From Urechidicola sp. (GTDB lineage: Bacteria > Bacteroidota > Bacteroidia > Flavobacteriales > Flavobacteriaceae): 38,185 bases of DNA. The position numbers were made by a program, and so were the translations under genes. The notes under the pieces were generated by a model. The model did no database searches, was not told where the DNA came from, and saw nothing but the letters and a program-made list of their open reading frames with translations. The stretch covers positions 1 to 38,185 of the forward strand of contig JAQRMW010000018.1 of the NCBI GenBank assembly GCA_028599075.1. The letters run 5' to 3'. How positions within the stretch are numbered: position 1 is the stretch's first letter; the number at the start of each line of letters is the position of its first letter. Of the stretch, positions 36,953 through 38,185 are shown piece after piece.

Positions 36953-38002
36953 TTGAAACATAAAGAAGCCCAAAATAGATTCCTTATTTTTTTGAAAGAT
37001 AAAAGAAAGAAAAGTATTTTTAAAATGCTTTGGGAAGCCTCCTATTTATGGATTAGCAAAAGAGAAATTCCATTTTATTATTTTAAATATCAGTATCGAA
37101 AATCGGTAACTAACTTCAAAGATTATCTAAGTACTAAAGAAGGTATACGAATTCAACAGGGTAATCTCTTACACAACGATGAACTTATCTCGATTATGGC
37201 AAACAAACTTAGCTTTTCTTTGTATTGTAAAAAAAATGGTCTTCCAAATGCCAAAATGGTTAGTTATAATCTAGATTCAAATTTCTTTTTTGAAAATGAA
37301 GTTATCAAAGTAAAAAATTCTGAAGCTCTTTTTTATTTTTTTAACCATCTCTTTGAGAAAACAGCACACCAAAGTGTTTTTATAAAGCCACTTGCTCAAT
37401 ATGGTGGTGCAGGTTGTTTTAAGATAAATAAGAATAATTTAAAAGAAGATATAAAACATTGCAGTGAGCATGTGATTGGCACTGGTTATATCCATGAAGA
37501 GGTCATTCAACAACACGAGGTTATCAATAAAATTCATGAAAACTGCATCAATTCTGTACGCCTATTAACATATATTGATAAAAACAAATCAGCTAGTATT
37601 ATTGTTGCTTATATGAGATTTGGCATTGGTAAAAGTGTTGTTGATAATGTGAGTTCTGGTGGATTTCAAGTGGGCATCAATATTGAAAATGGTACACTAC
37701 ATGAAAAAGGGTATCAAGATATGGAGTTTGGTGGCGCTGAGTTTTATAAACACCCAACAAGTGGGTTTGTCTTTAAAGATTTTAAGATTCCGCATTTTAA
37801 AGAAGTATTGGATTTAACCTATAAAACAAGTGATTTTTTACCCGACAGAATTATAGGTTGGGATATTGCCATAACTACTAATGGCCCTGTTTTAATTGAG
37901 GCCAATGAGTACCCCTCCATTTTTGCAGCAGATATTATTTATGGTGGATTAAGAAAACATCCGAAGATAAAAGAATTGCTATCAGAATTAAAGATTAATT
38001 AA
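36953..38002 (+). CDS. Sugar-transfer-associated ATP-grasp family protein
   Basis: 349 residues from a TTG start; no ATG is available before the conserved NRFLIFLKDKRKKS segment. The ATP-grasp fold is seen in the VFIKPLAQYGGAGCFKI lysine/glycine loop, NSVRLLTYIDK, and the C-terminal GWDIAITTNGPVLIEANEYP metal-binding block with its Glu and Asn. The order fits the sugar-transfer-associated ATP-grasp group (ATPgrasp_ST), often found in polysaccharide or glycan loci. Such enzymes ligate a carboxylate and an amine; the substrate is unknown. A near-consensus promoter (TTTG at 36889, TATTTTG at 36915) lies upstream. A truncated copy of the same N-terminus follows directly. Confidence 0.87.
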   Translation: MKHKEAQNRFLIFLKDKRKKSIFKMLWEASYLWISKREIPFYYFKYQYRKSVTNFKDYLSTKEGIRIQQGNLLHNDELISIMANKLSFSLYCKKNGLPNAKMVSYNLDSNFFFENEVIKVKNSEALFYFFNHLFEKTAHQSVFIKPLAQYGGAGCFKINKNNLKEDIKHCSEHVIGTGYIHEEVIQQHEVINKIHENCINSVRLLTYIDKNKSASIIVAYMRFGIGKSVVDNVSSGGFQVGINIENGTLHEKGYQDMEFGGAEFYKHPTSGFVFKDFKIPHFKEVLDLTYKTSDFLPDRIIGWDIAITTNGPVLIEANEYPSIFAADIIYGGLRKHPKIKELLSELKIN

Positions 38003-38005
38003 ATT

Positions 38006-38067
38006 ATGGCAGTAAAACAACAAAACAGACTACACATATTTTTAAAAGATAAAAACAAAAAAAGTAT
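38006..38067 (+). pseudogene. Truncated second copy of the ATP-grasp gene (N-terminus only)
   Basis: It starts at an ATG 3 bases after the ATP-grasp stop. KQQNRLHIFLKDKNKKS matches KEAQNRFLIFLKDKRKKS of the upstream gene, so this was a tandem paralog. The match stops after codon 20, where the presumed insertion sequence starts. The open frame runs on to a TAA at 38102-38104, but the last 12 codons have no similarity. Confidence 0.75.
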
Positions 38068-38185
38068 GGTTCAAGATAGTTTAGGGAAATTTATATCTTT
38101 GTAAATTATTGAGAAACAATGAAGAACAAGTATATTTTCCGTTCCCGAATTTCTGAGAAGAAATTTAGACAAATTTTAAAGCTCT
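38068..38185 (+). mobile_element. Left end of an IS1595-type insertion sequence, continues past the window
   Basis: The paralog match ends at about 38067, and the following GGTTCAAGATAG fits an insertion-sequence terminus starting with GG. A -7 box TATCTTTG (38094-38101) precedes the transposase start. The right end, the opposite terminal repeat and any target duplication lie outside the window. Confidence 0.55.
38119..38185 (+). CDS. Transposase N-terminus, IS1595-like (partial)
   Basis: The first 22 codons, from an ATG 17 bases after the -7 box, cut by the window end. MKNKYIFRSRISEKKFRQIL resembles the start of IS1595-family transposases of Bacteroidota, which continue with a helix-turn-helix of the LTATQIA type. 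The match is from memory and rests on a short segment. Confidence 0.55.
   Translation, partial: MKNKYIFRSRISEKKFRQILKL

Follow-up and report, generated by a model that had tools for sequence, protein, structure and literature searches.

What became of the second of two ATP-grasp genes at the 3′ end of this window, where its opening codons give way to an insertion sequence? The window spans one contig from end to end (G000:C90, 38,185 bases), which belongs to a draft genome of 3.36 Mb in 291 contigs (95% completeness). At its 3′ end, the second member of an old tandem pair of ATPgrasp_ST genes very probably meets an IS1595-like insertion sequence that has recently multiplied.

The second gene of an ATP-grasp pair breaks off after 20 codons

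The first ATP-grasp gene (36953–38002, forward strand) is intact and encodes 349 amino acids. Its translation matched the sugar-transfer associated ATP-grasp family (ATPgrasp_ST, PF14397) with an E-value of 1.4e-41 and 143 bits, above the curated cut-off of 31.4 bits, and an 81% identical orthologue is present in a congener (G002, the MAG Flavobacteriaceae bacterium BB35; locus JADGEL010000003.1). The likely start codon is TTG, and the LKHKEAQ start is also kept in BB35. The stop codon TAA at 38000–38002 is followed by ATT and then by an ATG at 38006, which, as the original prediction stated, opens a 20-codon ATP-grasp match. The frame from this ATG reads MAVKQQNRLHIFLKDKNKKS and then departs from homology. 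These 20 codons and two further bases (38006–38067, forward strand) were assigned to the 5′ remnant of a tandem second gene by homology to the second gene of BB35, to which the 20 codons are 85% identical. Compared as DNA, the 20 codons scored 85 with the BB35 gene and 44 with the first gene of the window, which indicates that the match is not due to chance. In BB35 the two ATPgrasp_ST genes are both intact and follow one another in tandem, and their neighbours on either side are the same as here, whereas the second is broken in the genome studied here.

An ATP-grasp remainder beyond the element had been predicted from about residue 21. Such a remainder exists, but it starts from about residue 164, where it opens a second contig, C290, directly after a right end of the same element. 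Positions 228–773 of C290 encode residues 166–347 (numbering of the first gene), with 93.5% identity to the second gene of BB35 and a match to PF14397 (E-value of 3.9e-38; 131.7 bits against the cut-off of 31.4). This C-terminal piece occurs once in its own genome. The middle of the gene, about 427 nt from codon 21 to about codon 163, had no copy in the assembled contigs other than the first gene. Because the gene resumes only at about codon 164, its N-terminal half would be lost, and it is presumably a pseudogene.

The interrupting sequence is the left end of a multicopy element

From position 38068 to the contig end at 38185 (forward strand), the window consists of the left end of an insertion sequence that runs off the contig. 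A 63-bp pattern from this left end was found at 50 sites of the genome, all without mismatch although three were allowed, and the reversed-pattern control gave no site. The corresponding 30-bp right-end pattern was found at 57 sites, 53 of them exact. These counts bear out the predicted interruption by an insertion sequence. Of 178 candidates from a search with the window, the 40 that were scored were, apart from the query, repeats of its final ~118 bp, located where contigs end. The element ends occupy the extremities of contigs or positions close to them; the interior, with the catalytic core, is unassembled. C90 itself stops within the insertion sequence because the element is repeated, and this break would reflect a short-read assembly unable to cross it.

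The two ends carry terminal inverted repeats that start with GG: GGTTCAAGATAG at 38068, the outer end of the left repeat, and GGTTCAAGATAA at the right end read inwards. The right ends finish with ...GTTATCTTGAACC, the inverted copy that the original prediction had called for. Within the left terminal repeat (38068–38101, forward strand), GGTTCAAGATA matches the right end, and the inner motif TATCTTTG (38094–38101) is repeated at the matching place of the right end, read inwards. This motif had been proposed as a -7 box; it is present where stated, but its recurrence in the right end suggests that it may belong to the terminal repeat rather than, or besides, being a putative promoter element. 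An open reading frame starting at 38119 reads MKNKYIFRSRISEKKFRQILKL and stays open to the contig end (38119–38185, forward strand), corresponding to the first 22 codons of a putative, presumably active, transposase. The 42 C-terminal residues come solely from other contigs, on which the right end of the element reads as a transposase C-terminus with its stop codon inside the terminal repeat.

On C290, a second repeat of 118 bases (positions 1–118), found at 17 genomic places, abuts the final ~105 bp of the IS1595-like copy, a junction of an element within or against another. A plasmid search with this second repeat gave no match, and no name was assigned to it. The copy on C290 is thus itself interrupted, ~105 bp before it ends, so that the locus involves more than one element alone. 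On C97 (positions 1–120), another IS1595-like right end is preceded by a different sequence, so that this is a second truncated or interrupted copy. At the start of C205, the flank of the right end, AAGATAACTTAA, equals bases 6–17 of the element's right terminal repeat read inwards, possibly from an insertion near an older end or by chance.

The element resembles the IS1595 family

The original prediction called the transposase IS1595-like, and the short C-terminus is where the resemblance was found. The 42-residue C-terminal peptide scored 69 and 73 against the transposases of ISEc75, annotated as IS1595-like, and of G148, and was identical to each at 15 of 33 aligned residues; none of 500 shuffles was as good in either comparison. 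For the 22 N-terminal residues, 14 and 114 of 500 shuffles, respectively, were as good. Searches of both terminal peptides against Pfam and NCBIfam (hmmscan) gave no transposase family, and the DDE transposase core PF12762 had no match in the own genome, where the interior of the element is unassembled. Members of the IS1595 family have terminal inverted repeats that begin with GG, as seen here also in ISEc75, and produce a target duplication of 8 bp. The element shares with this family, and with its ISEc75-like subgroup, the GG-starting inverted repeats, a stop codon near or inside the right end and the 8-bp target duplication described below, whereas the terminal repeats of ISEc75, GGGGCTGTCCTAGATAA, differ from its GGTTCAAGATA. 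As the N-terminus is equivocal and hmmscan gave no transposase family, we call the element IS1595-like, for its resemblance in the short transposase C-terminus, rather than a proven member.

No close relative was found among 397 genomes searched (own included), the one match in another genome having an E-value of 5e-4, and no intact copy of the element was found in relatives. With the left-end DNA as query, 12 of 299 genomes (the own and 11 relatives) had matches, and those in the relatives were all short and weak. Copies of PF12762, present in 4 of 14 genomes of the genus, gave no convincing match to the terminal peptides. Literature searches on IS1595 in Flavobacteriaceae, its target preference, ISXO2 and element expansion in draft genomes listed nothing of relevance to the element.

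Elsewhere the element duplicates 8 bp of AT-rich target

The way in which the element inserts was deduced from the flanks of all its ends. Exact agreement over 8 bp between left and right flanks was observed for 42 pairs among the 50 × 57 combinations, while shifted controls gave 0, 1 and 0. Twenty-two of these pairs are one-to-one, neither end having another exact partner, and in none of them does the duplication reach a ninth base. The targets are mostly 90–100% A/T over the 10 bases beside each end (lowest position 0.84; background 0.684). Once the flanks are joined, 11 of the 22 one-to-one pairs have the site within an open reading frame of 100 codons or more, so that genes are often hit, although this test is crude and some of the frames start or end near the site. 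Orphans make up 43 of the ends (16 left, 27 right).

On contig C6 of BB35, 21 of the 107 ends could be mapped, and 18 of these form nine neighbouring left/right pairs. Target agreement is 8/8 in five pairs, 7/8 in three, and 6/8 in the C90/C290 pair. The three pairs at 7/8 (near 152685, 302500 and 477280–478314) have their mismatch at position 1 twice and at position 8 once, although the element ends are identical across copies. The pair near 477–478 kb shows, despite its 7/8 agreement, a large length difference from BB35, and length differences between the species are therefore not peculiar to the C90/C290 locus.

The flanks at the second gene weakly favour one insertion and a deletion

The target duplication that had been predicted is thus a property of the element elsewhere, and at the second gene it is inexact or lacking. 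Beside the left end, in the position of a target duplication, C90 carries AAAAGTAT (38060–38067, forward strand), an 8-bp sequence found at none of the 57 right ends; the flank on C290 is ATAGGTAT, in agreement at six of eight positions, and about 427 nt of BB35 sequence lie between the two ends. We consider it fairly probable that a single element was involved. The element, of which the genome has at least 50 copies, would have entered the AT-rich stretch at codon 21 of the second gene, and the resumption of the gene at about codon 164 on C290, past a right end of the same element, would be explained by a deletion of roughly 427 nt, either before the insertion or outward from the right end.

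The same junctions might instead have arisen by two separate insertions, one at codon 21 and one at codon 164; codons 21 to 163 would then still exist on a short contig missing from the assembly. We regard this as a possible but less favoured history. Both element ends at the second gene are in the same orientation, and both are orphans with different 8-bp flanks, as this history would have it. A fragment of ~0.7 kb between two elements would probably be missing from the assembly, the smallest contig among those seen being 3,007 bases. Against it, the flank at codon 164 suits the element poorly as a target: its fit to the AT-rich preference is the second lowest of the 57 right ends, and its position 5 is a G, whereas all other right ends have A or T there. 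The eight other neighbouring pairs on C6 of BB35 all agree at 7/8 or 8/8, and no further case of a short fragment between two insertions was observed on that contig. Moreover, only 2 of the 50 left ends reach 6/8 agreement with the C290 flank. The poor target and the 6/8 agreement with the C90 flank together weakly favour a deletion over a second insertion; the preference is weak since 48 of 432 pairs of orphan ends reach 6/8, which is not rare, and since short contigs are apparently missing. Two poor-target orphan flanks were sought in BB35; one was absent, and the other mapped to C6 with no right-end partner there.

Synteny with BB35 and the age of the duplication

The adjacency of C90 and C290 rests on synteny with BB35, and no read or contig joins the two. 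The genome being a draft of 291 contigs at 95% completeness, C290 might come from another strain or place, through misassembly or binning, and C90 continue elsewhere. We consider such an artefact improbable, because C90, ahead of the pair, and C290, behind it, both keep the gene order of BB35 and the C-terminal piece has a single occurrence in the genome.

Relatives of the first gene were present in 11 of 60 genomes searched (own included). The tandem pair of BB35 is 81% and 57% identical to the first gene, and the paralogues are about 57–58% identical to each other. In a tree of nine rows, the first gene groups with the first gene of BB35, and the C290 piece with the second, each with 100% bootstrap support. 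The grouping of each paralogue with its own orthologue indicates that the tandem duplication predates the split from BB35, and only the insertion would be specific to the lineage. The single genes of G009 and G011 pair together, and the nine-row tree does not settle how the groups branch, so that the duplication cannot be dated further.

The original prediction of a tandem duplication followed by insertion thus holds for the pair and for the insertion, but the duplication is shared with BB35 rather than recent and local. A recent local duplication followed by a simple insertion, beyond which the gene would continue from codon 21, agrees with the tandem arrangement and the N-terminal match three bases past the stop, but it is ruled out by the tree as to the duplication and, given the divergence of the paralogues, the missing codons 21 to 163, the remainder beginning at residue ~164 and the lack of any right end that begins with AAAAGTAT, is of negligible probability as a whole.

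A burst of one insertion sequence in a draft genome

The element ends and their 8-bp duplications make a usable set for joining the contigs of this draft genome. It is doubtful that the element routinely deletes DNA beside its right end, some of the 43 orphan ends marking such deletions; if this were true, the element would be a rapid agent of gene erosion rather than a simple insertional mutagen. The breakage of the second ATP-grasp gene is ordinary gene decay in a genome that carries a burst of one insertion sequence, whose more than 50 near-identical copies in 3.36 Mb fragment the assembly and break at least one gene.
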